Below, piece after piece: positions 49,207 to 58,926 of a DNA stretch of 64,000 nt. Source of the DNA: Malonomonas rubra DSM 5091 (GTDB lineage Bacteria; Desulfobacterota; Desulfuromonadia; Desulfuromonadales; Geopsychrobacteraceae); the NCBI RefSeq assembly GCF_900142125.1, contig NZ_FQZT01000001.1, forward strand, positions 496,001 to 560,000, written 5' to 3'. The translations under genes and the position numbers were made by a program. Position 1 is the stretch's first letter. Every line of letters begins with the position of its first letter. Below the pieces are notes generated by a model. It was not told where the DNA came from. It searched no databases and worked only from the letters and a program-made list of their open reading frames with translations.

Positions 49207-51243
49207 ATGAATTCGCTTAAAATCAAAATCCTCGGGATCACGATCCTGATCACTATTGCTGCCGTAACCGTCGCAACCTGGCATAATGTGCAGACCCAGA
49301 GTTTGATGGTCAAACAGATGGTAGGCCAGAACAGCCGCATTCTGGCGCGCACTATCCATAACAGCCTGACCAGCGCCATGCTCTCCGGACGGAACCAGGA
49401 TGTCATTGTGGCGTTACAGAAAATAGCCACAGAGCCAACCGTCCATGAGCCGCGAATTTTCGACCAGAGCGGGCGCATCCTTTTCTCCGCCAACGAAACC
49501 GAGATAGGCCGCACTGTTCCTGTCATCGACCTGATAACTTTCCGCAACAATCCCAGCGATTTCGGGCTGGCAGAAACCGATGGAACTCACTTCGTCACCA
49601 CCCTGCCGATTCGCAACACTGCCGAATGCAGGCAGTGCCATCCAGCCGAGAAGGAGCTGCTCGGAATTTTCAGCGCCCACCTCGGCCTCGAATCCCTGCT
49701 GTCGTTACAGCAACAGGGGAAGCAAGCCAGCTTTTTCACGTCTGTCTCTTTGCTGCTGGTCATGATCATCTGCTTGGTCGGATTCGTTCTCTATTATGTC
49801 GACACTCCTATCCGCAAACTGACTGCCGCCATGACCCACTTGGAACAGGGTAACTTTGACGCTGCCTCAACCAGCATCCACAGTTCGCGCGAAATGGCAC
49901 TTCTCTCCAACAAATTCAACCGGATGGTTGAGGGGTTGAAGCATCTGCTGAATACTACAGTCTTGTCTGAACGAGAACGCGCTGCCGATCAGGAAAAATT
50001 ACGGCATAAAGACAAAATCGACAGCATGCATATGACACTGGAAGAGCGCCTCAACGAGATAGAAAACCTGAACAGTACACTTGAAGAGCGGGTCCACGAA
50101 GTCGAGGACGCCAACTTCCGCATCTCAGACCTGGCAGCCAACCTCGAAGACCGCAACACAACCCTGGCCAAAGCGGTCAACCGGCTGTCAACTCTGTACG
50201 AAATGGGACTGGTCATTAATTCGACCATGGAACTAAAAAACCTGTTTCACCTGCTACTGGAAAAGGCACTGGAATCACTGCACGCAGACGTTGGCTACAT
50301 CCTGCTTTACGACAAAGTCAACAACACTCTGCGCATCGGAGATGTCATCGGCGTTCCGATCGGCTTCTTCGACCCGGAAATGAGTATCAAGCTGATCCAG
50401 GGAGGTGTCTCTCACTGGGTGATCGAAAATCGCGAACCGCTGCTGATCAAACGGATCGAGGACGCACGCGAGTTCTCCCGTATGAGTAAGCTCGGCTTCG
50501 CTCGCGACACTGTCATCTGTGCGCCGCTGTTTACCCAGGATGAGGTCATCGGCACCATCACCATCGCCAACCGGAGGGATGAATCTCTTTTCTATGAAGA
50601 GGATCTTGAAATTCTCTCGACGATTGCTGCACAGGCGAGCGTCGCAATCAAAAACGCCCGCCTTTACGAAGAGCAGCAGAGTACTTATTTAAGCACGGTT
50701 CAGGCCTTGGTTTCTGCCATCGAAGCGAGCGATCCTTACACCCGCGGCCATTCAGAACGGGTCACCCGCTACTCGGTTGCCCTCGCCCATAAGCTCAACC
50801 TGAACGAAAGCGCCTTCCGCGACCTGGAACAGGCCGCAATTCTGCACGATATCGGCAAGATCGGCATCGATGATTCCTTGCTGCACAAAGTCGAAACCCT
50901 GTCACTGGATGATGTCGACCGTCTCCGTCAGCACCCCCTGATCGGCATGCGGATCCTTGAACCAATCCATTTCATGGCGCGGGTGCGGGAAGTTATCGGT
51001 CAGCATCACGAACGCTTCGATGGCAGCGGTTACCCACTCGGTATCACTGGCCAGCACCTCCTGCTGGAATCGCGCATTCTGGCGGTTGCGGACAGCTTCG
51101 ACGCCATGACATCAGATCGCCCTTACCGCAACGCCATGCCGACCAGTGTTGCAATCAGCGAGATTGAAGCCAACAGCGGGACTCAGTTTGATCCGGAAGT
51201 GGCAAAAGCTTTCGTGGAACTGGTCAAAACAAACCAGCTGTAA
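49207..51243 (+). CDS. Heme-c sensor HD-GYP cyclic-di-GMP phosphodiesterase
   Basis: A 678-residue membrane receptor. Helix 1 (about 7-25), a periplasmic sensor (26-172) with a single heme c attachment site CRQCH (141-145), helix 2 (about 173-197), HAMP (198-250), coiled coil (255-325), GAF (about 330-475) and HD-GYP (about 485-678). The catalytic residues are present: GHSERVTR, AILHDIGKIGI and HHERFDGSGYPLG, so c-di-GMP hydrolysis is expected. The heme could sense redox state, oxygen or nitric oxide, as periplasmic heme-c sensors of Geobacter do. A GGDEF enzyme follows after 12 bases. Confidence 0.93.
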   Translation: MNSLKIKILGITILITIAAVTVATWHNVQTQSLMVKQMVGQNSRILARTIHNSLTSAMLSGRNQDVIVALQKIATEPTVHEPRIFDQSGRILFSANETEIGRTVPVIDLITFRNNPSDFGLAETDGTHFVTTLPIRNTAECRQCHPAEKELLGIFSAHLGLESLLSLQQQGKQASFFTSVSLLLVMIICLVGFVLYYVDTPIRKLTAAMTHLEQGNFDAASTSIHSSREMALLSNKFNRMVEGLKHLLNTTVLSERERAADQEKLRHKDKIDSMHMTLEERLNEIENLNSTLEERVHEVEDANFRISDLAANLEDRNTTLAKAVNRLSTLYEMGLVINSTMELKNLFHLLLEKALESLHADVGYILLYDKVNNTLRIGDVIGVPIGFFDPEMSIKLIQGGVSHWVIENREPLLIKRIEDAREFSRMSKLGFARDTVICAPLFTQDEVIGTITIANRRDESLFYEEDLEILSTIAAQASVAIKNARLYEEQQSTYLSTVQALVSAIEASDPYTRGHSERVTRYSVALAHKLNLNESAFRDLEQAAILHDIGKIGIDDSLLHKVETLSLDDVDRLRQHPLIGMRILEPIHFMARVREVIGQHHERFDGSGYPLGITGQHLLLESRILAVADSFDAMTSDRPYRNAMPTSVAISEIEANSGTQFDPEVAKAFVELVKTNQL

Positions 51244-51255
51244 TGGAGAGATATC

Positions 51256-53415
51256 GTGTTTGAAAAAATCCGCTACGCGAATCTTTCTTTATTGAAGAAG
51301 GTGCTGCTGCCCTACATCCTGCTCCTGTTGACACTGGCGATGGCAATATCTTTCGGTTCCAGCATGCTGTTGCATGGCGGCCTGATCGACATCAGCAAAC
51401 AACGACTGCAACATATTCAGCAGCAGGCCTACGCAGATTTTAAAAACATTGAGCACCTGCTCGTTTTCAACAGCGAAGCGCAGATCGAACCTCCGCAAGA
51501 GGCCTCCACAATCATCGAAAAAGCTCTGGCGCCATACGATCAACATTTTCACGTCAGCCTGATCCGTTTTGATGATCCCGACCTGCCACAAAGCCAACGC
51601 ATTCTGCTGGAGAAAAGCCTGCACAACCACTCCACCTATATCAGCGTTCTGCCGGCCCCCGGTCAAGGTTTGATGCTGGCAGCGGCCAGGCGGTTAACGG
51701 AAAACTTTTTTCTCTTTCTTCAACACCCATTAGACTCACAACATCTCGACTTACTGGCCGAGCGGTATGAGGGGAACTTTATGCTGCTTGATCGCCAAGG
51801 GCGGTTACTGGCAAAAAGCAGTGGTACAGAGATCGAGTTACCGGCACTCTCGGAACCGATTCTGAACAAAATCCTTTCCGGCACGTCCCACGCAGCGTTC
51901 AGCGAATATCCGCAGGCAACCTTGATCAACTACACGGCACTCCCGCTCGGTCACGACAGTGTCTTCCTGCTGGCAACCAGTCAATCGCTTTCGGCCATCG
52001 ACCTGTTGATCAGCAAGCACCGTATCTATTTATTGGCAATCATCGGCCTCAGTTTATTGGTCTGCATCACCCTGTTCCGCTCTCTGTTGATCCGCCTTTT
52101 CAGCCCGTTGCAGGCACTTGTCACAACCCATGAAAAAGTCAGTCAAGGTGACGACGACTACCGGGTGCCGATTGAAAAGCATAACCATTCACAGTTGACC
52201 ATGCTCTGCCACGCCTGCAACCACCTGCTCGACCGTATCAGTGGACAAAAACAGCAGATTACCGATCTGAACGAGCAGCTTAAACAACATGAGGAACTCA
52301 AAGAACACAACCGTCACCTGCGGAAAAGTAACCTTGAGCTGGAGAGCCGCTCTGTCAGCCTGAAAGAGCAGAACCAGCAGTTTTCCGGCTTGTTCAAGAT
52401 TGCCCAATCGCTGGTCTCATCTCTTGATCAACAGTTGCTCTACGAACGCATTATCCAGGCGTTGAAAGACACGCTCGATTGCTCCCTCTGCGTGCTCTAT
52501 ATTTTCAAACCGGCAGACGACAAGCTGACGGCAGTCAAAATACAGGGGCTGTACGGCATCGACCTGAAATCGATTCGTGCCGAACTGGGAGAGGGGCATG
52601 CAGGCCGCGCCGCCCTACAGCAGCAAACCTGTTATATAGCTGACATCGACAAGGAAGCGAACAAGCCGCTGTACGGCAATGAGGTTATCAGCTCCGGCTC
52701 ACTGCTTTCGGTGCCACTGACAGTGCAGAATCGCCTGATCGGCGTCCTGAATCTGCACCAGAATGAAGTCAACGGGTTCAGCAGCACCTCACAACAGATT
52801 GCCCAGGCGATTGCCAGTCAGGCCGCGATCGCCATCGAAAACGCCCGTCTGTACGAAAAAACCAAAACTCTCTCAGCAACAGACGAGTTGACCGGCTTGG
52901 CCAACCGACGCCAGTTCCAGGAATTCCTCTTACGAGAACTGGCCCAGTCACGCCGCCAGCACAACCCCTTCAGCATCCTGATGATCGACATCGATCATTT
53001 CAAACGCTACAACGATTTTCATGGTCACCTGAAGGGCGACATCGTGCTGAAAAAGGTTGCCACGCTGCTGATGCAGAACACCCGCGGCGTCGACCTGGTC
53101 GCACGTTTCGGTGGTGAAGAATTTGTCCTGCTACTACCGAAAAGCGATAAAGAAAGCAGCCTTTCGGTCGCCGAGAAGCTGCGTGTCTGCATTGAAAAAG
53201 AGTTCTTCCCCGGGGCCGACCAGAGCCAACCAGGCCAGCGCCTGACAATTTCTATCGGCATTTCTCACTTCCCCGGTGACAGCAGTGACATCTACGATTT
53301 GATGAACCTCGCTGACACGGCGCTCTACGCAGCCAAAAAACTGGGGCGCAACACCTGCGTCGGCTGGTCACCGGAGCTACAGCAGCAACAGAGCCAGAGC
53401 ACAAAAAAAGGCTGA
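51256..53415 (+). CDS. Membrane GAF-GGDEF diguanylate cyclase
   Basis: A 719-residue receptor: helix 1 (about 15-37), periplasmic domain (38-255) of unrecognised type without CXXCH, helix 2 (about 257-278), HAMP (about 280-335), coiled coil (335-385), GAF (about 385-535) and GGDEF (about 545-705). The active site GGEEF is intact and the inhibitory site RGVD lies five residues upstream, so feedback inhibition by c-di-GMP is expected. GTG start after GGAGAG, 12 bases behind the phosphodiesterase. The pair encodes synthesis and breakdown under separate periplasmic inputs. Confidence 0.93.
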   Translation: MFEKIRYANLSLLKKVLLPYILLLLTLAMAISFGSSMLLHGGLIDISKQRLQHIQQQAYADFKNIEHLLVFNSEAQIEPPQEASTIIEKALAPYDQHFHVSLIRFDDPDLPQSQRILLEKSLHNHSTYISVLPAPGQGLMLAAARRLTENFFLFLQHPLDSQHLDLLAERYEGNFMLLDRQGRLLAKSSGTEIELPALSEPILNKILSGTSHAAFSEYPQATLINYTALPLGHDSVFLLATSQSLSAIDLLISKHRIYLLAIIGLSLLVCITLFRSLLIRLFSPLQALVTTHEKVSQGDDDYRVPIEKHNHSQLTMLCHACNHLLDRISGQKQQITDLNEQLKQHEELKEHNRHLRKSNLELESRSVSLKEQNQQFSGLFKIAQSLVSSLDQQLLYERIIQALKDTLDCSLCVLYIFKPADDKLTAVKIQGLYGIDLKSIRAELGEGHAGRAALQQQTCYIADIDKEANKPLYGNEVISSGSLLSVPLTVQNRLIGVLNLHQNEVNGFSSTSQQIAQAIASQAAIAIENARLYEKTKTLSATDELTGLANRRQFQEFLLRELAQSRRQHNPFSILMIDIDHFKRYNDFHGHLKGDIVLKKVATLLMQNTRGVDLVARFGGEEFVLLLPKSDKESSLSVAEKLRVCIEKEFFPGADQSQPGQRLTISIGISHFPGDSSDIYDLMNLADTALYAAKKLGRNTCVGWSPELQQQQSQSTKKG

Positions 53416-53436
53416 ATCCCACGGGATCCAGCCTTT
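53404..53436. terminator. Bidirectional terminator after the GGDEF gene
   Basis: AAAGGCTGAATCCC / GGGATCCAGCCTTT hairpin with one mismatch (53407-53436). The stop codon of the GGDEF gene lies in the left arm. Confidence 0.8.
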
Positions 53437-53459
53437 CGTCAGCATTTCTGCAGAAAAAA

Positions 53460-54239
53460 CTATTTCACTTTCGAGATGGTCCGCTCAGCAACAATCACCA
53501 GTTCGCCCCGCTCGAGTCCGAGAGTCAGCACCTTGACAACTTCATCGGCATAATTGTCCGACTTGTATCTCTGGCGGAAACGGATCTCTGCCCGGTTGCC
53601 TTGCTCCGACAGCACCTTGATATTCGATACCGTCACCTCGATCGACTTCGGTTTCAGCAGGCGGTTACGACGTTGTTCGGCCCATTCTTCCCGCGTCCCT
53701 TTTTCTGGAGCAAACTCCTGGCCGTAACAGGAAAGATAACCTTCGACATCCTGCGCCGACCAGGCCCCCCGCCACTTATTGAGTAACGGCAGATAGACTG
53801 CTTCGGCCGTTTCAATCAGGCAACGGGCACTGAAGCTGAAATCGTGACGATCAAACATGTAGGCCTTGCCGTCGGCAAAGCTGACACCCCAGACCTGGTC
53901 CGGCTGCTGCTCCTCGCGGCTGAGGGACCAGTAGACTTCGGCAGCCATATCAGCAAAAGCAGAATTATCGAGATACTGTCCAGCACCGACGTTGTTGACC
54001 AGCGATACCAACTCGTCACGAAAGGGCAGACGCCAGCCCCGTGAATCGGCCAGTTCCAGCTGGTTGCAGTAGCGGACTGCTTCCAGCCAGGGCATCTTCT
54101 CCGAACTCTGCTGCTGCCAGATCAGGCCACTTTCACGGTCCAGAACCGTGCCATCATTGCGGATGTTAAAACTGGCTGCGCTGCTGTTGCCTGTGGCAAA
54201 CAACAAAGCCAGGACAACCAATAACATCGGGCTACGCAT
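53460..54239 (-). CDS. Exported DUF1566 protein with Csd6-like C-terminal domain
   Basis: A 259-residue protein with a signal peptide (about 1-21, ending SSA), an Lcl/DUF1566 domain (about 24-145; GTVLDRESGLIWQQQ, WRLPFRDEL, YWSLSREE) and an NTF2-like domain (about 150-259; WRGAWSAQDVEGYLSCYG, PKSIEVTVSNI, RFRQRYKSDNY). DUF1566 is common in extracytoplasmic proteins of unknown role. The C-terminal domain recurs in the two upstream gene products. GGAGGAG precedes the ATG. It is third in the operon, 23 bases after the transpeptidase. Confidence 0.85.
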   Translation of the reverse strand: MRSPMLLVVLALLFATGNSSAASFNIRNDGTVLDRESGLIWQQQSSEKMPWLEAVRYCNQLELADSRGWRLPFRDELVSLVNNVGAGQYLDNSAFADMAAEVYWSLSREEQQPDQVWGVSFADGKAYMFDRHDFSFSARCLIETAEAVYLPLLNKWRGAWSAQDVEGYLSCYGQEFAPEKGTREEWAEQRRNRLLKPKSIEVTVSNIKVLSEQGNRAEIRFRQRYKSDNYADEVVKVLTLGLERGELVIVAERTISKVK

Positions 54240-54262
54240 ATCACACTCCTCCTCGTTGGACC

Positions 54263-55615
54263 CTACTGGCGACCTTCGTAAAGTACCTTCCAGCGCCCCT
54301 GGTCCTTAATCATATACAATCGCTTTCGCATTTCACCGTTGTAATTATTGGAGCGATAGCCTTGCCGAAAGTTGGCCACTACCATCGGTTTGGCATCAGC
54401 CACTTTCGGATAGCCGAGCAGAGAAATATCGCTCAAATCAATTTTCTGAAAGGTTTTCCCGGCAAAAACCTGTCTTTTATAGCGTTGCCAACTATCGATG
54501 TCATGATGACCAGTCCAGAAGGAATCGGAATACATGGACAGGTAGTTCTCGATATCCGTCTCCTCCCAGCTCTGCCGCCAACGCTCAAGGGTCGCCTGGA
54601 TTTCGATATTGAGATCAAGCCACTCGCGGCTGTCACACCACTGCACCTCTTCGCTGATAATCACTGGCGTCCGGCCGATTTCGACATATTGCTCGATGCG
54701 GGTGAACTCTTCGTTGGTCAACACCACACAGCCTTCACTGTCGAGGGGCGGCCGGCTGTAAAGGGATTTGTCGGTGCCGTGCAACCAGATGCCGTTGCCG
54801 GTCTTGCGCAGGCGTCGGTCAAACTCGTTCGGATAATTGACCGGAAAAGCTCCGCTCCCATAAAGCGGCGGCAACTTTTCATCCGGCAGGTAGCTGGTGA
54901 CAAAATAGACCCCGTTCGGTGTTCGCAGGTCGCCTTCGTGATACTTGTCACCACTCTTTTTCCCCAGCACAATGTAGAAATCATCCACCAGTTCCGGCGG
55001 CAGCCCGGGACCTATGTTGCGATAGATATAAAGACGGTTCCGGCTTTTATCGACAACCAGCGCATATTCGGTCTGATTGCTTAAGGTCAAAAGAGCCGAT
55101 GGAACCTCAACCCCCTGGACAAGGGAAAGATAGCCTTTCAAGCGGGCACGAGCTTCACGGCGCAATTGTTCAATACGTGCTTCCTTATCGCTGCCGATGT
55201 CCTGTAACAGCGAACTTGCGCCGATCGACCCAACCTGATCGAAGCGGGCCAGCAGCAGGTCACCCAGAACCAGGTGAGCAAGCTGAAACTTCGGAGCATT
55301 TTCGGTCAACTGTTGTAACTCGCTGATCGCCGTTTCCAGCCGACCGGTCTGGAAATACAGCAGCGCTTTCAACAATCTGGCCTCAAAATCATCCTGGTTG
55401 CGCTGCAAGCGACTCTCGAGGCGCTGCAGCAGAGCTCCTTGCTGTGCATCTAGTGAATCGATCCAGCGTTGCTGCTCATCGACGACGCTGACGACAGGAA
55501 GCTCAACAGACTCATCCGGCGGCAGGGACTTGTCCGACCAAAGCGCACCAACCTTCACCCCGGTAAAACCGAGTAAGATAAGAATCAGAAGCGTGATGGA
55601 AAACCGCTTGATCAT
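54263..55615 (-). CDS. L,D-transpeptidase (YkuD/YafK type) with Csd6-like C-terminal domain
   Basis: A 450-residue envelope enzyme. N-terminal helix (about 5-25), TPR-like helices (about 50-165), then the YkuD domain (about 182-322) with His279 in WLHGTDKS and catalytic Cys296 in SEGCVVL, and an NTF2-like domain (about 340-450). YkuD enzymes form 3-3 cross-links or attach or trim peptides on murein; H. pylori Csd6, a related carboxypeptidase, also carries an NTF2-like C-terminus. Which activity applies is open. Its start overlaps the pseudokinase stop (TAATG). Confidence 0.9.
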   Translation of the reverse strand: MIKRFSITLLILILLGFTGVKVGALWSDKSLPPDESVELPVVSVVDEQQRWIDSLDAQQGALLQRLESRLQRNQDDFEARLLKALLYFQTGRLETAISELQQLTENAPKFQLAHLVLGDLLLARFDQVGSIGASSLLQDIGSDKEARIEQLRREARARLKGYLSLVQGVEVPSALLTLSNQTEYALVVDKSRNRLYIYRNIGPGLPPELVDDFYIVLGKKSGDKYHEGDLRTPNGVYFVTSYLPDEKLPPLYGSGAFPVNYPNEFDRRLRKTGNGIWLHGTDKSLYSRPPLDSEGCVVLTNEEFTRIEQYVEIGRTPVIISEEVQWCDSREWLDLNIEIQATLERWRQSWEETDIENYLSMYSDSFWTGHHDIDSWQRYKRQVFAGKTFQKIDLSDISLLGYPKVADAKPMVVANFRQGYRSNNYNGEMRKRLYMIKDQGRWKVLYEGRQ

Positions 55616-57732
55616 TAACGCGCTCTCCCCAGAGATCGTTCACGGACAATCAACCAGCTGTCTTCAGTCTGTACCAGGTCAAAACGCTTACGTGTCCGAT
55701 CCTGATAACGATCGCTGCGATACTCCTGGGTCACTTCAATCTGCTGTTGATCGCCGCTCTCACGGAGCAGAGAAAAATCGCTCAGGGTCACTTCAATCGT
55801 CTTCGGTCGAGTCAGGCGCGTCTGCCGTTGCAGCTCCCACTCCTCCAGGCCGATACCGGAAGAGGGTAAAAATTGGTCGGAGTAAAAAGCCAGATAGGAG
55901 GAAACATCCTGATTCGACCAGGCCAGCGCCCAACGCTGAAGAAACTCCTCAGCAGACTCTCGCGATACGGCCACAACCTCTTCTGCGGCAACATCAATCG
56001 ATTCGACAACAACGGTTTCAGCCTGTTCAACTACCGGTTCCGGTTCTTCTTCTGGAACCTCGGTAACAGCAGAAGATTGTTCATCAACCACCGGTGCCGG
56101 TGGCACAACCTCGGGCTTAACAGCTGCGACAATTTGAGATTCTTCTGCCGGCTCTCCCTTTTCCGTCGTTGTTGCAGTTGCATTGAATGTCATCAGCTGA
56201 TCACCACCGAACAGCTGCAGGCTGACGACCTGCTCGCCTTTTTCCAACTGCAGTGCACGACCATAGGAATCGCGTGCCATTTCGGAATAAACCGTTCCCA
56301 GGTTGCGGTAAACAGTGGCATACGCCTGGTCCGTCGCCATCGCCCGCTCCAACAATTCGCGAGCCTGCTCCAGGTTTCCACTCGAAGCAGCGATCGCAGC
56401 CAGATTGTTATAAGGCTGCGGAGCCATGGGATAGTCCTGCGCGAGAGCGACAAAGGTCTGCTCTGCAGTGGTGGTATCGCCAACGGCAAGCTGTAGGCTA
56501 CCCTGCTGTAAACCATCCAGCAACGCCTGTTGCTCGGCACCATCTACTTGTGCCTGTTTATTCTGCGGAGAGAAGAGCAGCAGATAGATCGCAACTCCAA
56601 CTGCAATACCAAGAGCAACGAGCAGGACAAATCGGCTGAGACCGCCAGTTTTCTGCGTCTGATATGAATTCATATTTTGCGACTTCCGATAACTTTGTTG
56701 GCCGATAGCTGACATCCGTGCGCTGCTGGCCCGTTTATTGTCAGGCGTCAAATCTGCGCTTTGCTGCAATGCCTCGGCCCTTTGCTGCAGGCGCTGTTCT
56801 ATCCGGGCGGCCATATCCGACTGTTCGGAGACCGCTTCAATCACTGTCTGCTCGATCTCCTCCTGCGGCGCCAGCAAATCTTTGTCCTCTGCTGGTTGCT
56901 CGACCGATTCATTCTCGGTCGCAGGCTGCGGGCAAGAAAGAAGATCGATTTCCGGCAGTTGCAGCAATTGATCAATTTCAGCGATCAGTCGATCGGCATT
57001 CCAGCGATCTCCGGGAACCGGCAGCAGCAGGTTATCAAGTAACGGCTGCAGCAAGGCCAACTCTGTCGGCAACGGCTCTGCCTGCTGCTGCAGGTGCAAC
57101 ATGGCAGTCGCAAAGGGCTCGTCACCAACAAACGGCTCACTGCCTGTCAGCAGCCGACAAAGCAGGATTCCCAGGCTATAAAGATCCGCCGCAGGGCTCA
57201 ACGGCTCACCGCGCACCAACTCCGGGCTGCTGTAGCGGGGATCTATCCCCGAGTTGAAATCAAGCTGCAGCAGGCTGGCAAGGGCAAACTGGTCTAAATA
57301 AACACCTTGCTGATCAAGAAGGATGGTTGCCGGTGAGAGCGCACCATGCCAGAGACCCGATTCGTGCGCCGGGCTGAGCGAATTGGCGGTCGCCCGCACC
57401 AGCTCCAGAGACTCGCGAAGCGAAAAACCTTTTTCCAGCCACTCGTTTACAGAGGTGCCTTTTGCCAGCGGATAAACACAGTAACTGTATTCATCATTGC
57501 TGTCAGCTGCCAGCAGGCTGCAGATACCGGGAAATGACTGACCACAGAGACGCTGCGCCTGGGCAATAAAAGCTTGGCGCGACTTTTTATCAACCAGCTG
57601 CTCAACATCGAGCAGCAACAGCTTGGCCGTCTCGACAACCGGGCCGGTCACCTGATAGGTGGTGAAAAGCTGATTTTCTTCGAGCGGCTTGACAATCCGG
57701 TAGTCGCCAACAGTATGGCCGCTAGTCAGCAT
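55615..57732 (-). CDS. Membrane-spanning pseudokinase with TPR and Csd6-like C-terminal domain
   Basis: A 705-residue protein. Residues 10-265 have the Ser/Thr kinase fold but lack catalytic residues: the glycine loop is absent, the HRDLKPxN loop reads HGALSPATIL (129-138) and DFG reads DQF-A (147-150), while SSPE (168-171) and the DLYSLGILL helix remain. A disordered, Gln/Glu-rich linker (270-385), a membrane helix (about 387-406), TPR units (about 425-510), an acidic Pro/Val linker and the NTF2-like domain (about 600-705) follow. The kinase fold is cytoplasmic and the rest periplasmic. It heads the operon. It is most likely a regulatory scaffold, which is inference. Confidence 0.85.
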   Translation of the reverse strand: MLTSGHTVGDYRIVKPLEENQLFTTYQVTGPVVETAKLLLLDVEQLVDKKSRQAFIAQAQRLCGQSFPGICSLLAADSNDEYSYCVYPLAKGTSVNEWLEKGFSLRESLELVRATANSLSPAHESGLWHGALSPATILLDQQGVYLDQFALASLLQLDFNSGIDPRYSSPELVRGEPLSPAADLYSLGILLCRLLTGSEPFVGDEPFATAMLHLQQQAEPLPTELALLQPLLDNLLLPVPGDRWNADRLIAEIDQLLQLPEIDLLSCPQPATENESVEQPAEDKDLLAPQEEIEQTVIEAVSEQSDMAARIEQRLQQRAEALQQSADLTPDNKRASSARMSAIGQQSYRKSQNMNSYQTQKTGGLSRFVLLVALGIAVGVAIYLLLFSPQNKQAQVDGAEQQALLDGLQQGSLQLAVGDTTTAEQTFVALAQDYPMAPQPYNNLAAIAASSGNLEQARELLERAMATDQAYATVYRNLGTVYSEMARDSYGRALQLEKGEQVVSLQLFGGDQLMTFNATATTTEKGEPAEESQIVAAVKPEVVPPAPVVDEQSSAVTEVPEEEPEPVVEQAETVVVESIDVAAEEVVAVSRESAEEFLQRWALAWSNQDVSSYLAFYSDQFLPSSGIGLEEWELQRQTRLTRPKTIEVTLSDFSLLRESGDQQQIEVTQEYRSDRYQDRTRKRFDLVQTEDSWLIVRERSLGRAR

Positions 57733-57801: not shown

Positions 57802-58839
57802 CTAGGGGAAAAGCGGCACGATTCCCAGTCCAAGCTGCTCCGTAAAACCACAGATCAGGTTCATATTCTGAATAGCCTGCCCGGCAGCACCTTTCACCAA
57901 GTTATCGATGGCCGAAACCACGACCACCCGCCCGGTACGCTGATCACTGACCAAGCCGACATCACAGAAGTTAGTCCCGCGAACATAAGCGACATTTGGT
58001 AGCTCACCACCTGGCGTGACCCGCACGAAATGCTCGTCGGCGTAAGTCTGCCGGTAGAGGTTGATCAAGTCCTCGCTCGTTTGATCTTTACGCAGTGTCG
58101 CGTACATGGTGGAGAGGATGCCGCGGTTGATCGGCAGCAGATGCGGGGTGAAGTTCACAGCGACATCACATCCAGCCAAGGTCGAAAGAGTCTGCTCGAT
58201 CTCGGGAGTGTGCCGATGGGCAGCAACACCGTAGGCCTTAAACCCTTCATTGACCTCACAGTAAAGACTGCCCTGCTTGGCAGAACGCCCGGCGCCACTC
58301 GTGCCCGACTTACTGTCGATGATCAAGGTTGCCGGGTCGATCAGATCGTTTTTCAGCAAAGGCGCCAGGCCAAGAGCGACACTGGTCGGATAACAGCCAG
58401 GATTCGCCACGAGTCGCGCACCTGCCAGCTCGGAACGGAAAAGCTCCGGCAGGCCATAAACAGCCTCAGCGAGCAACTCCGGGCTACTGTGTTCCTGGTA
58501 CCACTGCTCGTAAACTGCCTGATCCTTCAGCCGGTAATCGGCCGACAGGTCCACAACTTTGCAACCCGCCTCGAGAAATCCGGGAATAACTTCCATCGCC
58601 GACTTATGCGGCAACGCGGTGAACACCAGATCGGACTTGGCTGCAATTGCAGCAATATCGACCGGCTCGCAGATCAGATCGCAGAACCCGGCCAGAGAAG
58701 GGAACACTTGGCTGATCAGCAAACCCTCGTGCTGCCGGGAGGTAACAGAGGATATTTCAATTTCAGGATGACCGACCAGCAGCCGGATCAACTCAACGCC
58801 GGTGTAACCACTGGCACCAACTACAGCAACCCTCAACAT
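57802..58839 (-). CDS. argC: N-acetyl-gamma-glutamyl-phosphate reductase
   Basis: Third step of arginine synthesis. The 345-residue product has the NADP-binding start [18 protein letters not shown], the catalytic Cys in [18 protein letters not shown] and the [12 protein letters not shown] His segment. It is the long, type I form. The gene is flanked by the pseudokinase gene (69 bases) downstream and rpsI's terminator upstream; no other arg gene is in the window. Confidence 0.96.
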
Positions 58840-58926
58840 AGCTGCCTCCTGTCTATGTCAAAAAGGGATTTACAGAAAAAGTGATAGGCATAATAACGCC
58901 AGCAAAGAACATTGTCGACAACAGAT

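Follow-up and report, generated by a model that had tools for sequence, protein, structure and literature searches.

Three adjacent genes of Malonomonas rubra, here called K, L, and D, encode a transmembrane pseudokinase, a cell-wall enzyme and a DUF1566 protein that all end in the same NTF2-like domain (PF24125). We consider it reasonably likely that this domain is a peptidoglycan-binding module by which the trimming enzyme, the DUF1566 protein and a TPR scaffold that spans the membrane are all brought to one wall, and the trio is probably a single device that is anchored to the cell wall and acts on it. In the window, i.e., the whole stretch of 64,000 nucleotides that was analyzed, the three open reading frames lie head to tail on the minus strand, directly 3′ of argC (57802..58839, minus strand): K (55615..57732, 705 aa; Pfam Pkinase, TPR and Cds6_C), L (54263..55615, 450 aa) and D (53460..54239, 259 aa), coordinates that are exact for all three frames. 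K and L overlap by one base, the start of L lying over the stop of K, and 23 bases separate L from D. A sigma-70-like promoter candidate is found 5′ of argC (58890..58918, minus strand, 10 of 12 matches), a terminator-like hairpin of 14 pairs with a T tail lies directly 3′ of D (53406..53437, minus strand), and no hairpin as strong as the latter occurs between the genes of the trio, all these being consensus matches only. Judging from this layout, argC, K, L and D form a probable transcription unit with argC as its first gene, in agreement with the coupling proposed when the sequence alone was read. Convergent to the trio are two genes encoding an HD-GYP protein, whose periplasmic sensor part carries a CxxCH haem-type motif, and a GGDEF protein (49207-51243 and 51256-53415); the HD-GYP gene also lies 3′ of D at two other loci (L040, L047), and both genes are absent from the argC-queA interval of one congener (G003).

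Homology among the three products is confined to their last ~105 residues. In blastp comparisons D and K aligned at 40% over 109 aa (E 5e-23), K and L at 28% (E 1e-10) and D and L at 27% (E 1e-9), and the Smith-Waterman scores of the three pairs (216, 128, and 113) compare with best values of 54-59 among 1000 shuffles. All three tails exceeded the 27-bit cut-off of the Pfam family PF24125 (Cds6_C, "Cds6 C-terminal NTF2-like domain"), with 61.7 bits for D, 109.7 for L and 57.9 for K. The domains occupy aa 596-698 of K (55639..55947), aa 339-447 of L (54275..54601) and aa 153-252 of D (53484..53783), all on the minus strand, and are of the accessory (Arg257) type in K and D and of the enzyme (Lys257) type in L. 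The best PDB match of the AlphaFold model of the D domain (pLDDT 92) was Bd1075 (7o21; TM 0.80, rmsd 1.8 Å), and the same structure was the best match of the model of the periplasmic part of K (rmsd 1.8 Å over ~111 residues); Csd6 and Pgp2 were among the next matches of both models, and CaMKII hubs also occurred among the structural matches. Structural matching was done for D and K, the fold of the L domain being assigned by sequence. The sequence-only reading, which had described a tail common to the three products, called it NTF2-like and compared it with Csd6, is borne out on these points. Its motifs need some correction, as KxIxxxLSD is exact in K only (KSIEVTVSN in D, KIDLSD in L) and YRS..Y appears as YKS..Y in D, and the N-terminal parts, said to differ entirely, have TPR repeats in common in K and L. 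The whole genome (3.96 Mb) encodes four PF24125 domains, three of them within the trio. The fourth carrier (contig 22 of G000, L034 6857-8656) is a second pseudokinase, degraded even further than K, that has one membrane helix and an NTF2 tail and sits between aconitase and HhH-GPD DNA glycosylase genes, an order that is repeated in relatives (L182 and L183).

L is the sole YkuD protein of the genome. Its N-terminus is a membrane anchor, followed by a TPR region (aa ~57-124, 55244..55447, minus strand; Pfam) and by the YkuD catalytic domain (aa 184-320, 54656..55066, minus strand), and the protein aligns across its enzyme and NTF2 domains with Bd1075 (E 5e-40), Csd6 (E 7e-30) and Pgp2 (E 6e-26). 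The catalytic His and Cys are present (HG, SEGCVV) and the residue at Cys+2 is Val. At this position Arg is typical of transpeptidases, while Csd6, Pgp2 and YafK have Ala and Bd1075 has Val (PMC8938487). None of the L proteins has Arg at Cys+2 (V, A, I, T or S; motif readable in 119 out of 120). Because L aligns with Bd1075, Csd6 and Pgp2 and the transpeptidase Arg is absent, it is better read as a predicted L,D-carboxypeptidase, and the name L,D-transpeptidase given to it earlier was rejected, as its Val at Cys+2 departs from the S/T-x-G-C-x-R motif. L shares with Bd1075, Pgp2 and Csd6 the alignment over enzyme and NTF2 domains, the catalytic pair, the non-Arg Cys+2 and the residues of the pocket, but differs in its added N-terminal TPR region and in the TPR-NTF2 partner gene alongside; bd1075 has been described as monocistronic (PMC8938487). 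At another locus (L114 8254-11239) an L enzyme with a degenerate NTF2 domain has a K-type one appended to it, which by its sequence is a domain transfer within the K-L pair.

The case for peptidoglycan as the ligand starts from Pgp2, whose NTF2 pocket binds peptidoglycan fragments by NMR, where changing Y233, F242, K257, K307 or E324 impairs shape and trimming and where K307A reduces binding to the sacculus (PMC8038945). In Bd1075 it is the NTF2 domain that targets the enzyme to the convex face, which is disturbed when the pocket tyrosine Y274 is changed (PMC8938487). An alignment of 281 domains, taken from K, L and D, from other carriers and from relatives in the Beta- and Gammaproteobacteria, was set against the Pgp2 and Bd1075 reference positions, and in every group W225, Y233, Y237, F/Y242, K/R257, Y296, K307 and E324 were either near-invariant or replaced conservatively. 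When the 114 columns are ranked by residue class, each of the five positions tested in Pgp2 is among the top 14; as pocket residues were originally chosen for their conservation, this ranking is to be read as persistence of the pocket rather than as an independent test of binding. The pocket is thus present in K, L and D, and peptidoglycan, already suggested as their common target, gains support at the level of sequence. Position 257 separates the enzyme from its companions, being Lys in 36 out of 36 L proteins of the family and Arg in all K (33), D (15) and other carriers (22) of the family, as well as in all 77 K proteins of the Beta- and Gammaproteobacteria; almost every domain outside the accessory group has Lys. 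Given this difference, the ligand of the accessory domains may differ from that of the enzyme domains. K-type and L-type domains form separate branches (support 0.98-0.99), and since these span classes of Proteobacteria the split is old; with respect to PF24125 at large, K and D stand apart in an accessory sub-branch marked by its Arg at the position of Pgp2 K257.

K is predicted to have a cytoplasmic kinase part and TPR and NTF2 domains outside, with one helix between. From the N-terminus it comprises the pseudokinase domain (aa ~1-265, 56938..57732), the cytoplasmic juxtamembrane motif DMAARIEQRL (aa ~306-315, 56788..56817), a single membrane helix recognized by hydropathy (aa ~366-387, 56572..56637) and a predicted periplasmic TPR region (aa ~405-500, 56233..56520; Pfam and model), all on the minus strand. 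The kinase has neither Gly loop nor beta-3 Lys (AKLL), HRD is changed to HGA, the Asn to Thr and DFG to QFA, positions that were read against a PknB sequence used as a ruler only. An active Hanks-type Ser/Thr kinase was therefore rejected for K, with beta-3 Lys, HRD Asp and DFG Asp all missing, and the loss of beta-3 Lys and HRD Asp in 23 out of 23 aligned kinase-bearing K proteins of the family extends the earlier description of a dead kinase beyond M. rubra. The kinase is nearer intact in G056 and G499, which represent two other families of the order, and every fully readable copy is catalytically incomplete. G056 encodes two adjacent kinase-NTF2 proteins with complementary defects (L035 7709-11407 and 11593-13704), one having HRD and DFG without beta-3 Lys and the other having the Lys and the Gly loop with HRD changed to HQS; each protein of this outgroup genome is thus missing half of the catalytic set. 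At least seven relatives without a kinase domain keep the membrane helix, TPR and NTF2 (e.g., L038, L045, L053, L171, L173), and the motif D[MLIV]AxRIExxL, found 40-65 residues N-terminal of the helix in 21 of the 32 K proteins, is retained by most of the kinase-less ones. The kinase decays across K proteins, the NTF2 domain does not, and because of the spread of kinase states among relatives we infer that a kinase was fused onto a TPR-NTF2 protein, then decayed and was then lost in several relatives.

The best NCBIfam match of the K kinase region, far below its cut-off, was the model of PASTA-domain Ser/Thr kinases. PASTA kinases (PknB/Stk1) resemble K in the N-terminal kinase fold, the one membrane helix and the wall-facing C-terminal part, but K has TPR and NTF2 in that part, no Pfam match to PASTA repeats, and has lost its kinase motifs. 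Another likeness is that to the NlpI-type TPR adaptor of E. coli, which pairs with wall hydrolases (PMC7049810): both are TPR proteins paired with such an enzyme, but NlpI is an outer-membrane lipoprotein, whereas K is a predicted inner-membrane protein that carries a putative wall-binding domain of its own.

D combines a signal-peptide-like N-terminus with a Lcl_C (DUF1566) domain (aa 30-140, 53820..54152, minus strand) that scored 81.1 bits in Pfam vs. a cut-off of 34.9, so that its assignment as a DUF1566 protein stands. Because Arg-type domains group together (support 0.98-0.99), its NTF2 domain is by phylogeny of the K type and not of the L type, and a recent copying of this domain from L was rejected on its Arg257. 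Inside the accessory clade supports are low and D falls in more than one clade, so that the tree is compatible with one as well as with several origins of the DUF1566-NTF2 architecture.

Genomic conservation assigns different ages to the parts of the locus. In every genome of the family with a readable site rpsI-argC is followed by K and then by L, and the K and L frames overlap in 31 out of 31 loci of the family, G012, whose contigs break inside K and L, not being judged. The TPR-NTF2 part of K, used as query against 84,980 named species, returned 80 loci, mostly in Beta- and Gammaproteobacteria, and a TPR-NTF2 gene lay immediately 5′ of a TPR-YkuD-NTF2 gene in 77 of the 78 that were testable (the exception being L134); being keyed on K, the scan shows that K rarely occurs without L and not the converse, and L without K is common outside these loci. 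At these loci the K protein consists of TPR and NTF2 and has no kinase, and its N-terminus often resembles a signal peptide; genes that frequently lie nearby, named from sequence, are cysS, an lpxH-like gene and one for a peptidyl-prolyl isomerase. D lies 3′ of L in 9 of the 10 genomes of the genus and in G056, and in other genera the DUF1566-NTF2 gene is located elsewhere or absent. Conservation of the trio, a point on which the sequence-only reading had made itself dependent, is thus found among congeners and in G056, and the trio as an ancient unit was rejected, D being third only there. On this comparative evidence the widely conserved core is the pair of TPR-NTF2 and YkuD-NTF2 proteins, D is an addition at the level of the genus, and K has its kinase part from a lineage-specific addition that is decaying and has been lost more than once.

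The congener G003 (99% complete) has no YkuD domain at all; its argC-queA interval retains frameshifted scraps of K only, L and D being deleted, and its second pseudokinase-NTF2 gene, which is not linked to the trio, has several frameshifts and stops and is thus a pseudogene. G021 retains in this interval only ~97 N-terminal residues of K and ~38 C-terminal residues of L. Shared loss is accordingly seen in two genomes, and that of K, L and D in G003 may be one deletion.

PF24125 is also found C-terminal on TolC, OprF-like barrels, FadL (L222), LptA and BamD-LptA (L197, L198), NHL propellers, Sel1 and TPR proteins. TolC-NTF2, of which two distinct types are seen, probably has two origins, because its domain is of the Arg type in this family and of the Lys type in another. 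One TolC-NTF2 protein (G489, L224 2330-4615) has ~170 additional C-terminal residues that look SPOR-like by eye, with no Pfam match. OmpA/OprF proteins usually carry a C-terminal peptidoglycan-binding domain. On the OprF-like barrels (L205 3158-4258, L209 3408-4538, L210 3669-4769) PF24125 takes the place of that wall-binding domain, but its fold is unrelated and no such barrel occurs in the trio locus; by analogy, this position is the best, albeit indirect, evidence for PF24125 as a wall anchor.

L, anchored in the membrane and acting in the periplasm, would then be an L,D-carboxypeptidase for the trimming of tetrapeptide stems, kept on the wall by its NTF2 domain. K, its conserved partner, would be a TPR scaffold that carries the same module, is held in the inner membrane by one helix and positions or gates L on the wall, its TPR region probably contacting L or regulators of L. 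Against a requirement for K, a periplasmic L alone, as in Bd1075 and Csd6, works without it. The helix would tie the K-L pair to the inner membrane while the cytoplasmic remnant, a dead kinase together with a conserved juxtamembrane helix, binds something inside, and K could carry information between wall and cytoplasm through binding and not through phosphorylation. D would be a secreted DUF1566 protein held on the same wall by its NTF2 module and recruited within the genus. We put forward only tentatively, and with more doubt than belief, a wider proposal in which K would be the Gram-negative equivalent of a PASTA kinase: its NTF2 domain would sense peptidoglycan outside, the fossil kinase and the juxtamembrane helix would pass this on in the cytoplasm via binding partners, and K would control the L,D-carboxypeptidase. 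PF24125 would then more generally be a wall-binding module in broad use, like SPOR, LysM and OmpA_C but so far unrecognized.

NTF2-like folds often oligomerize, and the CaMKII hubs among the structural matches, together with the translational coupling of K and L and their joint loss, would suit an assembly device in which the NTF2 domains pair K, L, D and other carriers in a hub-like manner and wall binding is unneeded. We regard this as unlikely, since Bd1075 is monomeric and Csd6 dimerizes via N-terminal helices (PMC8938487, PMC8038945), the ligand pocket is among the most conserved positions and the domain is present on unlinked and unrelated envelope proteins; that the three products bind each other, as had also been suggested, finds no specific support, and translational coupling and shared loss fit joint action. 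In a different explanation, also unlikely and slightly the less plausible to us, the module binds another envelope glycan or peptide, such as a surface polysaccharide, a lipoprotein or a DUF1566 ligand, and the trio is an adhesion or envelope-polysaccharide system. The consistent Arg vs. Lys difference at pocket position 257 of the accessory domains would agree with it, pseudaminic acid was at one time suggested as the ligand of the Csd6 NTF2 domain (cited in PMC8038945) and the C-terminal domain (DUF1566) of Legionella Lcl binds sulphated glycans (PMC11162425); Arg nonetheless preserves the charge, the remaining mapped pocket residues are all kept, and the periplasmic wall is favored by the lasting partnership with a YkuD enzyme and by the fusions to LptA, TolC and OprF-type barrels.

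Domain copying, known from L114, could finally have given D (and K) the L domain by recombination within the operon, as a passive tail with no shared function. This we hold to be very improbable, as the split between K-type and L-type domains is old (support 0.98-0.99), the pocket is constrained in both types and the NTF2 domain persists while the kinase decays. A wall-binding module common to the three proteins, with K and D inferred to bind through it as L would, is hence the reading that we retain.

The domain family itself is already known, and the NTF2 domains of shape-setting L,D-carboxypeptidases have so far been studied only within those single enzymes. The design of the trio is undescribed in the literature searched, in which (open-licence papers) neither a TPR-NTF2 partner of enzymes of the Csd6, Pgp2 and Bd1075 type nor such a wall-binding pseudokinase was found. 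The same module, its pocket intact, now appears on a pseudokinase, a TPR partner, a DUF1566 protein and outer-membrane proteins, and the TPR-NTF2 partner becomes a testable candidate for the placement of Bd1075-, Pgp2- and Csd6-type enzymes on the wall. The lineage offers a graded record from membrane kinase to pseudokinase to loss, in which the half that putatively binds the wall has been retained, and, if all carriers bind peptidoglycan, one assay would provide a function for many unannotated envelope proteins.
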